Source of the DNA: a virus
Direction: 5' to 3' (one strand)
IMG/VR virus record: IMGVR_UViG_3300009447_000045
Coordinates: 1 to 25,173 of that record
Length of the DNA stretch: 25,173 nt
In this document: one piece after another, positions 2,378 to 9,829 of the stretch
Position numbering within the stretch: position 1 is the first letter of the stretch
Layout of the letters: every line of letters begins with the position of its first letter
Notes under the pieces: generated by a model
What the model was told of the DNA's origin: nothing
The model's database searches: none
Seen by the model: the letters and a program-made list of their open reading frames with translations, nothing else
Made by a program: the position numbers and the translations under genes

Positions 2378-2861
2378 CTCTTAACCTTTCTAAGTCCGAT
2401 TGAATAACAGATTTAACAGCGGCTTGTTGTTTCTTCTCGCCCTTAACTTCTGCTTTCGATGGACGACCGGCTGAGCGTTTCTCTACCCACCCCTTTTCTG
2501 CTAACCACTTTGCTGCTGTTGGTGACTCGGAAGCATTACTGAGCATACGGGTTACACCCTTAGATCTCATCTTAACTTCCAACTCTTCACGCCATTCTTC
2601 AATGTAAGGGTGAAGAAGCGATGTCTTATTTAACAAACGCTTCCAATGATTCCAACCACCAAGGTTTCGAGTAGCAAACTTATACTCAGTAGGGTCATCA
2701 GTTGCTACGTATAGCTTCTTGATTGACTTGTATACCTTACCCTTGAACTCATGATCATCATCCTTTAAGGTGTAGATCGCGTGCTTGGGGTTGTCATACG
2801 AGAGCTCAAGGAACAAGCTCTGCGTATAGAAGTTACCATTCTGATCTTTAAACTTACTCAT
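2364..2861 (-). CDS. terS: Putative terminase small subunit
   Basis: 165 aa. It lies immediately upstream of the large terminase and overlaps it by 14 bases. The middle contains a W-rich segment (NLGGWNHWKRLLNK) followed by helical, charged sequence. The C-terminal third has a short helix-turn-helix-like TAAKWLAEKGWVEK segment and then a Lys/Arg-rich tail (GRPSKAEVKGEKK). Small terminases recognise packaging sites on viral DNA and regulate TerL. No sequence signature proves this here; the call depends on position, size and the basic, helical C-terminus. An unrelated DNA-binding protein is possible. Confidence 0.6.
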   Translation of the reverse strand: MSKFKDQNGNFYTQSLFLELSYDNPKHAIYTLKDDDHEFKGKVYKSIKKLYVATDDPTEYKFATRNLGGWNHWKRLLNKTSLLHPYIEEWREELEVKMRSKGVTRMLSNASESPTAAKWLAEKGWVEKRSAGRPSKAEVKGEKKQQAAVKSVIQSDLERLRDVRH

Positions 2862-2862
2862 A

Positions 2863-4668
2863 TTACGTATCCACTGAAATAGTTTTTACAGTACCGTCTC
2901 CAAACTTAACTTTAAGATCACCATCTGCTGAGTCAACATATAGATAAGTGTTGCCTGCGGATGTAACAGGTATTGTTGCACCATCTGTTAATACTAGATG
3001 TTCTACATTACCTGTCTCTACTCCATCGTTGGTATTACGGAAAGTACCACCAGTTGCTATAACAGTATTTACAGTGTTACCTGTGAAGGTTCCTAATCGG
3101 AAGTCCATGTCAGACTGTCGAGTTACACTGGCACCTGTTGTGCAGTTCTCTATATTCAACTGTAAAGCGTTTAAAACAGAGTTGTCTATTAAACTTGCTC
3201 CGATATAATAGCCATCAATTATACCATTGAGCCTGAGCCTTGTTGAATTCTGACACGTTACACCTGTGTTGAAACCAACTCCTTGTTCATTATATGCATA
3301 TATATTTGTAATAAATCCACTGCCATTGTCAGAAGAGACCGCAACAGAGTTCGTTCCGTTGACACGAAGAGCGACCATAGCAATGACGCTCTGGTTTACA
3401 ACCATCCCGGTTCCAGAATTCGACCCGAAGATTACATCACTTGTCCCCTCGAAGTAGCAGTTGTTGATTAGCTGAATACAAGAGCTTGTGCACGAAGACA
3501 CAAACATTTGACTTGCTCCAAAGAATGATGAACCATCGTTCAGAGAGACGCCTGTTGTATATTTCGCTATAGCCAGTTTACTACCCGACTGTCTTACAGA
3601 AGCTCTGTTGGTGGCGTATATTCCTTGTGTGCTTCCTACCCCACCGATGATTCCAAATTCTCCAGCAAATTCTAAAGAACCATTGTCTACGCTGAAAGAT
3701 CTACCAGACCCTGCTGCAAACTCAAGCTGGACTTCGTACTTATAGAAGTTTAGTGTTCCACCAAAAACGCCCACAGTGAAAGGATTTGAGACATACTCTG
3801 ATGACACCGCTAAGGTTACAGAGGTGTTGCCTATAATAGCTGTTACTTCGTGATAGCCGTTTAGCTCTTTCCTAACAGGATTACTTGAGATCGTAGACAC
3901 ATAATCACCTACAGAAATACCTGATGTATCTGAACATGTTAGCTCAACTGAGTAGTTATTAATAGACCCTGAAGATGAAGTTATTCCTGAGGCAGAGAAT
4001 GCTGTTGCTCCTGCGGCGCAGTCGTACTTCAGTGTTCCAAGTATCTGAGAGAAAGATTGTGCAGATACATTTGTGTAGATGCCGCTGTCTACTAACAAGG
4101 ATGCCCCATTAGCTACGATAACTGCATTTGTAAAATTAGGAAGACCACTCACTCTATAAACTGTATCTGCTTTAAAAGATATAGCTTCGCCTGTTGCTAG
4201 TGCTGAGTTGATAGCTGCTAGGTCGTCTGTTGTTCCATTACCGAGTGCACCAAAGTCTTCAACAGATACTATCTCACTAATCTTAGAACCTAGTGTTCTT
4301 CGTGAAGCACCTGCTGCTACGTTAGTAAAGGCTAGAGCATCTCCGTCTCTGAATACAAGGTTTGAACCATCGGTTGATAATGCTCTATCTGTATTGCCAG
4401 ACTGAGAAGGAAGAGTAGCATCTATTGTTGTGATGCCGGCTTTAACATCGATCCATCGTGCTGCATCGTTGTCGTTAACAGGTGATGGTAGATTCTTCAG
4501 AGGCTTGGAATTCATATCCAAATCTGTGTTCATCTGGTTAGGCTCACCCTCTGGGTTATCACGATACAATACCTTATCATTTAACTCAGACTCAATCGAG
4601 TCAAAGTTTGCAATGAGCTTTGTAACAGACTTGAACCCGCTGATGATTGAGTCGAGTGTAATTTTCAA
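2863..4668 (-). CDS. Tail spike/tail fibre with right-handed beta-helix
   Basis: 601 aa. The N-terminus (about residues 1-80) is a virion-anchoring tail-fibre type, with LYRDNPEGEPNQ, then NTDLDMNSKPLKNLP and a DNDAARWIDVKAG stretch, typical of podovirus fibres. Next comes VSVEDFGALGNGTTDD (135-149), the start motif of pectate-lyase-like beta-helix spikes. Repetitive Ser/Thr/Asn/Gly-rich beta sequence continues to about residue 545, followed by a short C-terminal beta tail. Such spikes bind, and often degrade, surface polysaccharide. No catalytic residues can be named, so the enzymatic activity is unknown. The start is a TTG at 4668, supported by AAGGAG 7 bases upstream that overlaps the stop of the preceding gene; the next in-frame ATG would remove the anchoring region. 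Confidence 0.88.
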   Translation of the reverse strand: MKITLDSIISGFKSVTKLIANFDSIESELNDKVLYRDNPEGEPNQMNTDLDMNSKPLKNLPSPVNDNDAARWIDVKAGITTIDATLPSQSGNTDRALSTDGSNLVFRDGDALAFTNVAAGASRRTLGSKISEIVSVEDFGALGNGTTDDLAAINSALATGEAISFKADTVYRVSGLPNFTNAVIVANGASLLVDSGIYTNVSAQSFSQILGTLKYDCAAGATAFSASGITSSSGSINNYSVELTCSDTSGISVGDYVSTISSNPVRKELNGYHEVTAIIGNTSVTLAVSSEYVSNPFTVGVFGGTLNFYKYEVQLEFAAGSGRSFSVDNGSLEFAGEFGIIGGVGSTQGIYATNRASVRQSGSKLAIAKYTTGVSLNDGSSFFGASQMFVSSCTSSCIQLINNCYFEGTSDVIFGSNSGTGMVVNQSVIAMVALRVNGTNSVAVSSDNGSGFITNIYAYNEQGVGFNTGVTCQNSTRLRLNGIIDGYYIGASLIDNSVLNALQLNIENCTTGASVTRQSDMDFRLGTFTGNTVNTVIATGGTFRNTNDGVETGNVEHLVLTDGATIPVTSAGNTYLYVDSADGDLKVKFGDGTVKTISVDT

Positions 4669-4678
4669 AGGTAACTCC

Positions 4679-4978
4679 TTATGTATCTACGTGAATTGCT
4701 GTTGCTACTGCTGTAGCCGGCTTGTCTATTCGGAAGTATCCGGGGCCAGTGATAAGAGCACTGTTGTTGTCAGATGACAATAAGACATTACCTTCTGGAT
4801 CACCACCATTAACTGGTACTGTGAATGTGCTGCCACCATCGATAGATCGCATTAACTTAACACTCTCTCGTGCTCCCATGTTAGGAACACAGTACACCTG
4901 AGCTGATGCTCCGGATGCTAGTGTTAATGCGTAAGTGCCTGCGCCTGTTGCTGATGCGATTGCTGTTGCTGTTGCCAT
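4679..4978 (-). CDS. Small probable virion protein, unknown function
   Basis: 99 aa, with an Ala/Thr-rich start (ATATAIASATGAGTY) and then beta-prone sequence rich in Gly and Ser (SIDGGSTFTVPVNGGDPEG, GPGYFRIDKPA). It has no signal peptide, membrane span or known motif. It lies between the deacetylase-domain tail protein and the tail spike with gaps of 7 and 10 bases, so it is probably a tail-tip, decoration or spike accessory protein. Its last residues (HVDT) echo the spike C-terminus (SVDT), which may be chance. I do not recognise a family. Confidence 0.7.
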   Translation of the reverse strand: MATATAIASATGAGTYALTLASGASAQVYCVPNMGARESVKLMRSIDGGSTFTVPVNGGDPEGNVLLSSDNNSALITGPGYFRIDKPATAVATAIHVDT

Positions 4979-4985
4979 TTTGTTA

Positions 4986-6710
4986 CTACCTCGTTATGAT
5001 TTTGTTTGATATGATAGAACTCGGTGCACCACCCCCACCGGAAGGCGTATCTGCCATTAGCTCTGAGAATGTTAAAGCATCGATAACGCCTGCATCATTA
5101 AGAGCAGCAACCTTGTCAATGAAGTATTGGAAGTCAGCTCGATCAACTTCAATACCTGAAGCACCTGTTGCCACAATACCATGGTAGGCTATAACGGCAT
5201 CTGAGTTTGTTTCTATCATACGCTTCAAGATTAAATCAGCTTGACTTGTAAGACGCTCGTACCCTGTATCAGGATAACGCATTCTATATAGATCACCTGT
5301 CTGCCATGTATTGTCAACACCACCAAACAAAGTAGATGTCTGTGTCGTGCCTGTTCCTGCTGATATTAATCCAGTGCTTCCATCTGTTACGTTCTCGATA
5401 ATGAAGCCTTGGTATTCGTTCGTATTCCAAAACTGAGCATTAGCATCGGTTAATACCGTTGTGCTGTTTGCTGCTGTATGAGTACCTTGAGTATCTCTTG
5501 AGTGAAGGATACCTTGACCCAAGTAGTTACGATCTGCTTTCTCATCAGCAGAGTCTGGGTTGTACATCATAGCAGGAACCCGTAACGGGTCGTCCATACC
5601 AAAACTACCATTAGGGTTAATTGGGTTTTGTGAAAGGTTAGCTTCTGTTAGTCCATCTACGTTTGCGCCTAGTCCCGCCCGTGCATAGCTGATACCTGAG
5701 TCAAAAAGTTCCTGTCTAAGCAACTGGTTATTCTTACTCTCTGGGTATGCAAAAGAACGTCTGCCCTTCTCTAAGCTATTTGTTGTACAGAATGTTTGCC
5801 AACCTGCGTGAGCCGTAGCCCGTTCTTCTGGTGTGGCATCTAGTAAGTTTAAGAATGCTCCTCCATTTGATGTGAAGTGATAACCTACTTCCCAACCTGT
5901 GCCGGCCATCTCTATGAAGTTTGCTAGGCTTGCTCTGCCTGAATCCGCAGGGTTGTTCACTTTATCATATTGTACAAAGCTAGTTCCGGGGACACCTTTA
6001 GGCTGCATGTATGCATAGGCTTCAGTGTAATCCGAATCTATTCCATCATCAAAGCATATAGCGAGTCTAGGTTTTCTATTAGCAATAGGATCAACAACAA
6101 CATCTAATAAGTGTATTGTCGATGTACCGTAGCTTGTTGCTGTATCTGCTGTTAAGACAAACTGTATGTTATCAACAGCAGACCACGAGAACGTGCCGCC
6201 TTTCGGTGCAGCATCTTGTGCATAGAACTCATCAAGGTTTGTTGTAACCCACCAGTAGCCTAGCTTGTTGTAAGCTGTTACAGAGTCTGCTGTTCCTCGT
6301 GCCATGTAGTATCGGGTAGTGTTGTTAGGCCATGATGTTCCTGATCCTACATACACTTGTACGCTGTTAAAATCCCACCAGCTAAACTCTGTAGTTTCGT
6401 CTGTGCCTTCGATGTATACAAGGAAGCCTATTGTCTTTGCACCCACTAGGTTCAAAGGTTCACTCATATGTAGACGAACAGAAGGGGTGAGTTCATTCGT
6501 ACTGGCATTGTGATCCCAGTCTAGTCTGATACCACCGCTGTTGTTTATAGCGTAGGTGTCATCTAGTGTCAGTGTTGAATCTGTATAAGCACCGTTGGTT
6601 CCCGAATCTCTTAACTGCCAAGCATCATCCTCTGTGCCTGAAGCCACAGCATCGAACTTAGCTATCTTCTTGTGGTTAGCCGCTAATGGCTTAGGTGTTG
6701 GATATGGCAT
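4986..6710 (-). CDS. Tail protein with polysaccharide deacetylase (NodB/CE4) domain
   Basis: 574 aa. Residues about 15-205 are a beta-rich, Trp/Tyr-containing region resembling a carbohydrate-binding jelly roll. Residues about 214-345 and 480-556 form a NodB-type deacetylase. Motif 1 is CFDDG (219-223), a motif 2-like GYHFTSN has H278, FAYPE (320-324) matches motif 3, and AYHG (508-511) fits the late His motif. Family members remove acetyl groups from surface polysaccharide with a metal held by one Asp and two His. Here the second His of motif 2 appears to be replaced by Asn (N282). Residues about 400-480 (DANAQFWNTNEYQGF and following) look like a beta module inserted inside the catalytic domain. 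It sits in the tail-gene cluster, so a virion-associated receptor or capsule enzyme is likely. Confidence 0.85.
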   Translation of the reverse strand: MPYPTPKPLAANHKKIAKFDAVASGTEDDAWQLRDSGTNGAYTDSTLTLDDTYAINNSGGIRLDWDHNASTNELTPSVRLHMSEPLNLVGAKTIGFLVYIEGTDETTEFSWWDFNSVQVYVGSGTSWPNNTTRYYMARGTADSVTAYNKLGYWWVTTNLDEFYAQDAAPKGGTFSWSAVDNIQFVLTADTATSYGTSTIHLLDVVVDPIANRKPRLAICFDDGIDSDYTEAYAYMQPKGVPGTSFVQYDKVNNPADSGRASLANFIEMAGTGWEVGYHFTSNGGAFLNLLDATPEERATAHAGWQTFCTTNSLEKGRRSFAYPESKNNQLLRQELFDSGISYARAGLGANVDGLTEANLSQNPINPNGSFGMDDPLRVPAMMYNPDSADEKADRNYLGQGILHSRDTQGTHTAANSTTVLTDANAQFWNTNEYQGFIIENVTDGSTGLISAGTGTTQTSTLFGGVDNTWQTGDLYRMRYPDTGYERLTSQADLILKRMIETNSDAVIAYHGIVATGASGIEVDRADFQYFIDKVAALNDAGVIDALTFSELMADTPSGGGGAPSSIISNKIITR

Positions 6711-6719
6711 TGTTTATTC

Positions 6720-6920
6720 CTATCGGTTATCGTTCTTAATACGTTCAAGCTCTGCTTCTGCAAAGGATACGTTACGCTTTAGCTTCTCATCAATCTCTGC
6801 CTCTGTAGGCACTTCCCCTGCAACTACACGTTTGTATAATTCAGATACTTGATCAACTGTAACTAATGCTTCATTGATAACCAATAGGCTATCTATAATC
6901 TTAACTGCTGTGCTACTCAT
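6720..6920 (-). CDS. Small acidic helical protein, unknown function
   Basis: 66 aa, almost entirely predicted helix, with heptad-like hydrophobics (IIDSLLVINEALVTVDQVSEL and a charged C-terminal half, AEAELERIKNDNR). There is no membrane span or signal peptide. It overlaps the end of the upstream lipoprotein gene by 8 bases and lies 9 bases before the deacetylase tail gene. It could be a chaperone or structural coiled coil of the tail module. Family not recognised. Confidence 0.65.
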   Translation of the reverse strand: MSSTAVKIIDSLLVINEALVTVDQVSELYKRVVAGEVPTEAEIDEKLKRNVSFAEAELERIKNDNR

Positions 6921-8363: not shown

Positions 8364-8464
8364 ATCTATCTCCTAGATACAGACCACTATGTATGCTATT
8401 GCATATAAAGATACACTACTCTATATATACCTACTCAGTGACCTGTCCTTAGTATACTTTAGTA

Positions 8465-8563
8465 TATACTCAAGGTATGTATAAGAAAGCCACCCTGCTA
8501 CTATGATTTTTATTGTGGTCAATAATAGAATCTAAGTAGCTTTCTTATATACACTAGAGTATA
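8465..8563. repeat. Long imperfect inverted repeat
   Basis: TATAAGAAAGC at 8480-8490 is repeated inverted at 8539-8549 (11 of 11). Further out, TATACTC at 8465-8471 pairs with GAGTATA at 8557-8563. The arms are about 26 bases each around a 48-base loop. It lies in the untranslated leader of the leftward transcript, with no U-run, so it is not a terminator. It could be an RNA structure or a protein-binding site. Confidence 0.7.
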
Positions 8564-8570
8564 CGTCTCC

Positions 8571-8601
8571 GCCGAACTTCGGCTTATCCTCTGTAAGAGG
8601 A
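8571..8601. repeat. Two adjacent short hairpins
   Basis: GCCGA/TCGGC with a 3-base loop and CCTCT/AGAGG with a 3-base loop lie side by side in the leader of the leftward transcript. No U-run follows on either strand, so they are probably leader RNA structure rather than terminators. Confidence 0.5.
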
Positions 8602-8682
8602 GTGCTTAATAAATCAATATATATATAAACCTCCGAAGATACTACTCCGTAGGTAGTCCTAGAAAAACTAAGTCTATACTTA

Positions 8683-8719
8683 TAATAAACACTTTTTAGT
8701 CCAATTCTTCCCCACTTTT
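8683..8719 (-). promoter_or_regulatory. Putative phage-sigma promoter for the leftward (structural) arm
   Basis: Read on the minus strand: AAAAGTGGGGAA (8719-8708), 9 bases, TAAAAAGTGTTTATTA (8698-8683). Both blocks are identical (12 of 12 and 16 of 16), with the same 9-base spacing, to the motif at 13899-13935 before the sigma-like gene. GGGGAA and GTTTATTA are 17 bases apart, a -35/-10 geometry. It faces the structural genes, whose first ATG is 320 bases downstream. The sequence match is observed; promoter function is inferred. Confidence 0.65.
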
Positions 8720-8766
8720 ATTAAAAATAATTAAAATAATTTGTAAGTCCTTGATAGTTATAGGTT

Positions 8767-8806
8767 GGCAGTCAAACACACTTCGCTTCGCTCGTAGGTG
8801 TTTGCC
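8767..8806. repeat. Stem-loop in the divergent region
   Basis: AAACAC (8774-8779) pairs with GTGTTT (8798-8803), and GGC (8767-8769) with GCC (8804-8806), leaving a 4-base bulge. The loop contains CTTCGCTTCGCTCG. It starts within a 13-base sequence, ATAGGTTGGCAGT (8760-8772), repeated at 9714-9726. No terminator-like U-run is present. Role unknown. Confidence 0.5.
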
Positions 8807-8863
8807 GTGTTAAAAGAAAGCTAAAAGATTAAAACATGAGCACACTATCTGGTAATCCATGAT

Positions 8864-8905
8864 GGTGTCGTAACAGATTACGGTAGCATACAAGAATACG
8901 ACACC
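8864..8905. repeat. 8-bp perfect inverted repeat
   Basis: GGTGTCGT (8864-8871) and ACGACACC (8898-8905) are perfect inverted copies around a 26-base loop. It lies between the leftward promoter motif and the GC-rich island. Possible protein-binding site or origin structure; unproven. Confidence 0.5.
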
Positions 8906-8961
8906 GGGTATATGAGAGAGGAGCATTTCTGTGGACGCATATCCCCGAATGGCCAGAATTT

Positions 8962-8990
8962 CTCAGAGATTTTTCTGAGGTGCAGTGCAC
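8962..8990. repeat. Hairpin CTCAGA/TCTGAG plus GTGCAGTGCAC palindrome
   Basis: CTCAGA (8962-8967) pairs with TCTGAG (8974-8979) around a 6-base loop. It is followed at once by the odd palindrome GTGCAGTGCAC (8980-8990). The pair marks the left border of the GC-rich island. Confidence 0.5.
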
Positions 8991-9001
8991 TACAGAGCTC
9001 G

Positions 9002-9110
9002 CCCCCCACCCCCCTTGGTGCCCCTTGGACCACTTCACCGGCTTCTACCTGTACGCGGGCCTGCGCGTGCGTGCGCGTGTAGCATATCGTGCGGCTAGTG
9101 TCAAGGGGGG
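9002..9110. other. GC-rich island with C/G runs and alternating purine-pyrimidine tract
   Basis: Runs of six C (9002-9007, 9009-9014) and four C (9021-9024) give G tracts on the minus strand. A strictly alternating CG/TG tract of about 20 bases (9062-9081) and a G6 run (9105-9110) follow. The composition contrasts sharply with the AT-rich flanks. G-quadruplex or Z-DNA formation is possible but not shown. Confidence 0.6.
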
Positions 9111-9386
9111 TGCAATGACATTACAACATTGTCACACTGCCACACCTTGGCACACTTCTTGCTAATCCCTTGCGTATCAATGACATACACCACATCAATA
9201 CTTGAGCCACTATCTATAGCTTGCAGTGATACTACCCTGTAAGGTCCTGTATGCCCTTGTGTGCGACGATAGGTGTACCCGTGCCTCTGCTATTCGTTAC
9301 GCCTTAACCTTGCTTAGAGCTATAAAGTCTTGCTTCTATATAGGTAAATTAAACGCTATCATTAACTATCTGTAATAAAACTATTG

Positions 9387-9414
9387 TTGACTATTCTATT
9401 GACTGGTGTATAGT
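9387..9414 (+). promoter_or_regulatory. Sigma70 early promoter 1
   Basis: TTGACT (9387-9392), a 16-base spacer, TATAGT (9409-9414), with GTTAAC overlapping the -10 end. It faces the early genes. A perfect GCAAAC/GTTTGC hairpin (9429-9447) lies just past the expected start. Confidence 0.7.
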
Positions 9415-9428
9415 TAACTCAAGTCAAG

Positions 9429-9447
9429 GCAAACACGGATCGTTTGC
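9429..9447 (+). repeat. Hairpin at the 5' end of the promoter 1 transcript
   Basis: GCAAAC (9429-9434) and GTTTGC (9442-9447) form a 6-bp perfect stem with a 7-base loop. It sits about 8 bases after the predicted transcription start of promoter 1. It could protect the 5' end or be an operator. Confidence 0.5.
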
Positions 9448-9494
9448 AGCAAGGTGGCTTAAAGCGGTGTAGGAAAATAAATTGAAATAAAGTG

Positions 9495-9522
9495 TTGACA
9501 GTATCAAATAAGCATGTATACT
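9495..9522 (+). promoter_or_regulatory. Sigma70 early promoter 2 (near consensus)
   Basis: Perfect TTGACA (9495-9500), a 16-base spacer and TATACT (9517-9522), followed by GTTAAC as at promoter 1. This is the best host-type promoter in the window. It would start the early transcript near 9529, giving a structured leader of about 330 bases before the first gene. Confidence 0.8.
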
Positions 9523-9630
9523 GTTAACAAGTCGAGCGAATCACGCCATAAGCTCAAACCACTCGGTATAGTACGGGATAGGGCTTAGCAATAGGCCCCC
9601 CAGATAACAAAAACGCTAAAATATAATGTT

Positions 9631-9694
9631 AGGTAGTACTTCTAGTACCAGTGTGATAAGGCTGCGACCTTATACAGTGGATGAAGTGCTACTT
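9631..9694 (+). ncRNA. Leader RNA stem-loop element 1
   Basis: AGGTAGTACTT (9631-9641) pairs along its full length (two G-U pairs) with AAGTGCTACTT (9684-9694). Inside, TGT plus ATAAGG (9652-9661, one bulge) pairs with CCTTAT plus ACA (9668-9676) around the loop CTGCGA. This nested structure lies in the early leader. I do not recognise a known riboswitch or tRNA. Confidence 0.5.
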
Positions 9695-9706
9695 ATAGAT
9701 TGTATT

Positions 9707-9829
9707 TTGAACAATAGGTTGGCAGTGTTTGGGTTTGATCACCTGAATACCTGTAGGGCTTTCGGTTACTGGCTGGAGTTGCCGCGCATGTAAATCCATA
9801 TAAGGTAGTGGTGCCCTCCTATTGTTCAA
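9707..9829 (+). ncRNA. Leader RNA element 2 closed by a 12-bp helix
   Basis: TTGAACAATAGG (9707-9718) is the exact inverse complement of CCTATTGTTCAA (9818-9829). After a 2x2 internal loop the pairing continues with GGCA (9721-9724) and TGCC (9812-9815). Further inside, GGGTTTG (9731-9737) pairs with TAAATCC (9791-9797) using two G-U pairs, and a small hairpin spans 9750-9772. The helix ends 15 bases before the ribosome site of the first early gene. No U-run follows, so it is not a terminator. Family unknown; a cis-regulatory RNA or stable small RNA is inferred. Confidence 0.6.

Follow-up and report, generated by a model that had tools for sequence, protein, structure and literature searches.

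The window analyzed here, a record of 25,173 bases from a marine-type bacterial virus, taken as a whole, carries on its minus strand (4986..6710) the gene for a 574-aa protein. The ORF, a match to PF01522, an AlphaFold2 (AF2) model and a comparison with PDB structures delineate in it an N-terminal CBM-like beta-sandwich, a NodB (CE4-like) domain and a beta module inserted into that domain, whose expected second metal-binding His is an Asn. We consider it probable that this protein deacetylates glycans as part of the virion of a short-tailed, ICP2-like phage, uncultivated so far, and that the insert serves receptor or substrate recognition; metal binding, catalysis, the substrate, the location on the virion and the function of the module are what we infer from the features set out below. 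The family to which the inserted module belongs is the most surprising part of the results.

Domains and motifs of the probable deacetylase

The ORF starts with ATG and has an AGGAA-type ribosome site upstream. Residues 212-342 matched the NodB domain (PF01522) with E=2.5e-8 and 34.3 bits (curated cut-off 23.1), and an HMM constructed from 10 other viral NodB proteins matched with E=1.4e-22 in two stretches, one in each half of the domain; the Pfam match is confined to the first half because the insert parts it from motif 5. A sequence-only reading of this DNA had pointed to FDDG, to H278 followed by N282 and to a late His motif, and all were found at the positions claimed, in a NodB domain detected well above chance. 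Motif 1, canonically TFDD, reads C-FDDG here, with FDDG at residues 220-223 (6042..6053, minus strand as for every feature of this protein), with D221 as the presumed base and D222 as the presumed metal ligand. Motif 2 reads Y277-H278-F-T-S-N282 (H278-N282 at 5865..5879), motif 3 is AYP at residues 321-323 (5742..5750) within FAYPES (320-325), and motif 5 contains H510 (5181..5183; AYHGI, 508-512), the presumed catalytic acid. Motifs 1 and 5 have the canonical CE4 form, and motif 2 departs from the canonical H(S/T)xxH. R344 (5679..5681), present in 19 of 22 aligned proteins, is a candidate for a displaced motif-3 Arg, an arrangement which has precedent (PMC10967932). Motif 4, DxxD(W/Y), was not located in the deacetylase, and the insert begins in that region. 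Across the 22 aligned proteins D221, D222, H278 and P323 were invariant and H510 was retained in 21, the letters that fall within FDDGxxxxYTxA being invariant by construction since the viral NodB set was chosen by this pattern.

The N-terminal beta-sandwich occupies about residues 10-205 (6096..6683), as indicated by CBM matches and by a model with pLDDT mostly of 50-80, and it aligns with the equivalent region of the viral homologues. Over its whole length the deacetylase is only 16-22% identical to its viral NodB homologues. When the complete protein was used as query, tblastn against phages found nothing at E<=1e-5 and, at E<=10, 20 distant records; viral contigs yielded only the overlapping contig L001, genome contigs yielded none and plasmids only 4 distant records. 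A PDB search with the single sequence gave no match.

The AF2 model computed from 22 sequences had pLDDT of approximately 85-98 in the NodB core, moderate values in the N-terminal sandwich and values below 50 in the insert, and its core is predicted to form the distorted beta/alpha barrel of NodB. The best match among PDB folds was the turret head of HFTV1 (Z 23.1, 6.7 Å, 345 aligned), whose sandwich-plus-NodB architecture runs along the deacetylase chain. The next matches were CE4 deacetylases with Z of 13-19, including an M. smegmatis deacetylase (3rxz; Z 18.8, 3.6 Å, 222 aligned), CtAxeA (2c71; Z 17.0, 2.9 Å, 183 aligned) and BoPDA (4dwe; Z 15.5, 3.7 Å, 219 aligned). By VIA-align, residues ~10-210 matched CBM families 11, 28 and 30 with Z of 11.8-13.1, the range being 11.8-13.6 when a mannanase CBM is included. 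When a profile of the family alignment was run against PDB sequences, 38 matched at E<=0.01; the HFTV1 protein was one of these, matched over residues 42-390, nearly its whole length, with E=9.1e-22.

Virus and gene order

The TerL encoded in the window is 62.9-65.9% identical to those of ICP2, VP41s3 and GX1, which are ICP2-like Zobellviridae, and the 25-kb record is perhaps a fragment of a genome. Read along the minus strand, small genes are followed by the deacetylase gene, a 99-aa ORF (4679..4978, minus strand, from the ORF list), a 601-aa spike-like ORF (2863..4668, minus strand, TTG start), a TerS-like phrog_8035 protein and TerL, so that the deacetylase locus lies just before the two terminase genes. 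In ICP2 a putative tail-fiber gene and adjoining hypothetical genes hold the equivalent position ahead of a phrog_8035-like gene and TerL; both the near terminase and the matching order of fiber, phrog_8035 and TerL genes place the window with the ICP2-like Zobellviridae.

The spike-like protein has an N-terminus of ~76-87 residues which matches tail-fiber anchor families and proteins of the ICP2 tail locus. The sequence-only reading had named it a beta-helix spike located 280 bases downstream of the deacetylase gene. A second, spike-like gene at the receptor-binding locus was borne out; the spacing proved to be 317 bases, with the 99-aa ORF in between, and the beta-helix match was weak, Pect-lyase (PF12708) falling short of its cut-off at E=0.0017. 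No relatives of the 99-aa ORF were found. It is plausible that the deacetylase and the co-encoded spike form a two-protein receptor system.

The deacetylase itself lacks the tail-anchor N-terminus seen in the spike. This, together with the turret head being the top and nearly full-length fold match and with the profile match to the HFTV1 sequence, would suit a decoration of the capsid or neck rather than the tail, a counterpart of the HFTV1 turret head, in which CBM and deacetylase form a trimer on the capsid. We regard such a location as quite unlikely, as the gene stands in a tail-fiber and terminase block and does not adjoin a capsid gene, and no counterpart of the turret base protein was identified.

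Several further observations were made in the window. Rfam and tRNA scans found nothing. Positions 8364-9807 (~1.4 kb), which separate the leftward structural genes from the rightward ones, hold only short ORFs. Over positions 2729-6765, which include the deacetylase gene, the 99-aa ORF and the spike gene, no base differs between the window and contig L001/L012, and 32 aligned positions differ in the remainder of the ~9-kb overlap; the identical stretch may reflect a recent exchange or sweep of the receptor-binding cassette.

The metal site and the second His of motif 2

That Asn stands in the place of the second motif-2 His, as had been proposed from the sequence, was upheld by the alignment, where 15 of the 22 proteins have His at position 282 and the deacetylase of the window is the only one with Asn. 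For a wider count, 34 non-redundant viral NodB proteins were compared (41 of 65 pattern stretches passed E<=1e-10). HxxxH was present in 22 of the 34 and absent from 12; among those without it the next His was at +5 in one and at +7 in three, and there was none within +8 in six, the query included. In the remaining two of the 34 (L140 and L144) the motif-2 position of the alignment is not His; in L144 a His stands two residues ahead of it, so that this loss may be an alignment shift. Six annotated phage proteins were also compared: that of a TM7 phage has H-x-T-S-N, four from Gordonia phages have Tyr at +4 and His at +7, and the Arthrobacter phage protein has none.

A tree was constructed from the query, the six annotated phage proteins and 22 viral NodB proteins out of the 33 others in the non-redundant set; L104, L105, L116, L130, L140, L144, L145, L149, L150, L156 and L158 were omitted, their sequences being incomplete, interrupted or difficult to place in the alignment. 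With motif-2 columns removed, lack of the second His, a class that here takes in proteins with His at +7, required 5 changes on the tree versus a mean of 9.66 after shuffling (minimum 6; 0 of 300 shuffles as low), and with motif 2 included it required 2. The query branched with the group lacking the second His with support of 80/93, which is not strong, and one member of this group (L110) has HxxxH; the branch of the query is long and its exact placement unsure. As the query and the TM7 phage protein are not sisters, the Asn may have arisen twice.

Two other descriptions of the motif were considered and dropped. A unique decay of one gene was rejected, since HxxxH is missing from further viral NodB proteins too and its absence is structured on the tree. 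WE-x-G-x-H-x-T-S-N as a subfamily marker was unsupported: the DNA pattern occurred in three viral-contig stretches, namely the other contig of the same phage and L088 and L089, where the motif lies in no open frame.

The retained D222 and H278 fit an Asp-His dyad metal site as in CtAxeA and BoPDA, a reading that is based on the sequence pattern. According to PMC11713874, the second His is missing from BoPDA, in which an Asp-His dyad binds Co, Ni, Zn and Cu and no activity was seen with the substrates assayed, and CtAxeA with the same dyad is active; the motif change alone therefore proves neither a dead nor a live enzyme. The sequence-only reading had offered a former enzyme turned binder. Developed fully, this would make the NodB fold a glycan-binding receptor domain with a weakened, non-catalytic metal site, the insert supplying or replacing the binding site. 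Loss of the second His, the inactivity of BoPDA with its His...Asn pattern, the existence of related CE4-like proteins without activity and a sister viral protein (L140) devoid of any motif-2 His all speak for it. We nevertheless consider it unlikely, and it did not hold as the default: the base, the metal Asp, the first His and the acid His (D221, D222, H278 and H510) are kept in the deacetylase and, with few exceptions, in the aligned homologues, absence of the second His follows clades, the dyad precedents bind metal and CtAxeA is active. The former-enzyme option is weaker than that of an enzyme whose metal site is reduced.

A complete Asp-His-His site might instead draw on a His from elsewhere, either H301 or, from the insert, H403 or H411. 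All three residues exist, and the His at +7 in three viral relatives and in the four Gordonia phage proteins indicates that the third ligand can move. However, the deacetylase has no His at +4 to +8, and H301 lies in a helix at a position occupied by Leu, Ile, Val or Met in the other 21 proteins. The position of H411 is His in most copies of the module, whatever protein carries it, and it is therefore improbable that H411 is adapted to this particular site. We judge such a site very improbable. The outcome that the sequence-only reading had named as evidence against itself, a canonical site provided by other residues and an insert with no fold of its own, was not observed in the models, where the core is predicted with confidence and the insert is predicted to fold separately.

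The insert in the NodB domain

The insert spans about residues 388-487 (~100 aa; 5250..5549), between the strand at 378-382 and the helix at 490-501, as delimited by the gap in homologues, the motif distance and the model. It corresponds to a gap in all 21 aligned viral homologues. From the motif-3 Pro to the motif-5 His there are 187 residues in the deacetylase versus 69-85 in 23 other viral NodB proteins, these being the ones among 33 other non-redundant proteins in which both motifs could be placed. The interruption of the domain had been anticipated from the sequence as about 80 residues at 400-480; its existence was substantiated, and its size and borders were revised to the ~100 aa given above, with a compact module at 409-477.

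Loops which follow the strands of such barrels sit on the active-site face, as do motifs 1, 2, 3 and 5. The insert likewise follows a strand and should therefore lie near the groove, a placement over the active site which rests on topology rather than on a modeled distance, the pLDDT of the insert in the whole-protein model being below 50.

In three other viral NodB proteins (L105, L149 and L150) motifs 2 and 3 were separated by 121-139 residues compared with 38-59 in the other 26 of the 29 measured. These proteins gave no match in the module HMM search, so that insertion on the catalytic face seems to recur in the family with differing material.

The module and its family

The beta module within the insert comprises residues 409-477 (~69 aa; 5280..5486) and was delimited by the AF2 model and by an HMM match with iE=1e-24, the window copy being one of the seeds of this HMM. 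Its signature, GGVDNTWQTGD at residues 463-473 (5292..5324), was used to scan the collections; modules were collected by GGxDNxWxxGD, whose letters are therefore invariant by construction. Identity between the module and 22 counterparts on other viral contigs is 34-51%. The HMM found 80 ORFs in the loci collected and covered 71 of the 79 loci gathered by the signature pattern. When the module was masked in the 78 strongest ORFs, a count in which the window and its near-identical contig enter separately, the remaining sequences fell into 39 groups without mutual blastp similarity at E<=1e-3. Ten module-bearing proteins were scanned for other domains: beta-helix or pectate-lyase matches were present in four (two above cut-off), one was a nozzle, one matched Phage-tail_3 at cut-off, one had a sub-threshold flagellar-hook match and three had none. 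In the nozzle protein (L027:1258-3822, minus strand; PF25675, E=2.8e-249) the module occupies residues 106-173, and its end coincides with the start of the main profile match at residue 170. An 883-aa ORF (L023:3675-6323, minus strand) contains three module copies. The genomes scan gave at least 12 true modules from the 120 pattern loci listed.

Searches of Pfam, PHROG and NCBIfam gave no convincing family for the module, weak RimM, Ig-like and other hits not being significant. With one natural member as query, tblastn found no match at E<=0.01 in 50,697 phage records and none in 72,556 plasmid records, and the window's own insert gave only two chance-level hits among phages. A literature search on the module signature and mobile tail domains returned nothing on the module, which is not proof of its absence from print.

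Modeled alone with AF2, the module formed a small beta domain with core pLDDT of about 84-94, and a viral predicted structure matched it at 0.6 Å with 42% identity. The best match among PDB folds was a GTA virion protein (Z 7.9, 5.3 Å, 90 aligned), maybe reflecting just a common arrangement. The discrete inserted fold suggested by the sequence-only reading is in this way corroborated by dozens of relatives and a confident separate model. A low-complexity or chance insert was rejected on the same two grounds and on the clean borders of the module.

Discussion

For the probable virion-borne deacetylase we propose the following mechanism. The CBM-like sandwich and the inserted module would hold an acetylated surface polysaccharide against the NodB groove, the module, spliced into the loop past strand 378-382 on the active-site side of the barrel, helping to grip or select the host glycan. 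A divalent metal on Asp222 and His278 would activate water, with water or Asn282 filling the vacated third position, and Asp221 and His510 would act as base and acid, respectively. Acetyl groups might then be taken off capsule or O-polysaccharide during adsorption, beside the co-encoded spike. For the SGNH tail enzymes of the phages G7C, Aristophanes and Possum it is reported that acetyl removal accompanies attachment, and PMC12494034 proposes the same for the HFTV1 turret.

A broader proposal is possible, although we hold it doubtful in its entirety. A deacetylase branch of tailed viruses would have moved to a stable, working Asp-His dyad and would swap beta modules in catalytic-face loops to alter glycan specificity; the 69-aa module would be a promiscuous adhesion cassette, so far without a name, that uncultivated phages share among spikes, nozzles and enzymes; and the bacterial-phage members and the HFTV1 turret head would stem from one virion deacetylase.

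A virion deacetylase composed of CBM and NodB domains is already known; what is new is that it occurs together with a dyad-type site and an unnamed, promiscuous module. In the literature surveyed, those phage deacetylases whose activity has been measured are SGNH enzymes. A tailed-virus NodB lineage with a reduced metal site offers a test set for whether CE4 chemistry needs Asp and His only, and the module provides a means to trace domain shuffling in tail proteins of viruses outside the isolate collection searched. The authors of PMC12494034 report that the HFTV1 turret head has no homologue in bacteriophages; the family profile described here ties the turret head to viral proteins, among them the deacetylase of the window.

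Among known systems, the SGNH tail deacetylases (G7C gp63.1, Aristophanes gp41 and Possum gp66) resemble the proposed enzyme in that they are described as removing O-acetyl groups without depolymerizing the glycan, whereas their SGNH fold and chemistry are unrelated to NodB. The TM7 phage DolZOral124_53_65 protein (MG269973, CQ476_49; L083) is 30% identical, shares H-x-T-S-N and a CBM-like region, and its gene adjoins a pectate-lyase-superfamily gene as the deacetylase gene of the window is accompanied by a spike gene; in contrast it has no insert, comes from a phage of another host and is not the sister of the query in the tree. CtAxeA (PDB 2C71/2C79) and BoPDA (PDB 4DWE, 9D44) share the CE4 fold and the dyad pattern without the second motif-2 His, the Asn of BoPDA lying in an HDLN (213-217) motif as written in PMC11713874. 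Unlike the viral protein, these are cellular enzymes with no phage module in a catalytic-face loop, and in BoPDA the CE4 domain sits inserted within a CBM. The HFTV1 turret head gp31 (PDB 8QPG) differs as a 413-aa chain with ~12% sequence identity and no module-length insert and, according to PMC12494034, as an archaeal virus protein of a capsid turret with a Zn site; as described there, it is like the deacetylase in combining an N-terminal glycan-binding-like sandwich with a C-terminal NodB-like domain, on the virion of a tailed virus.
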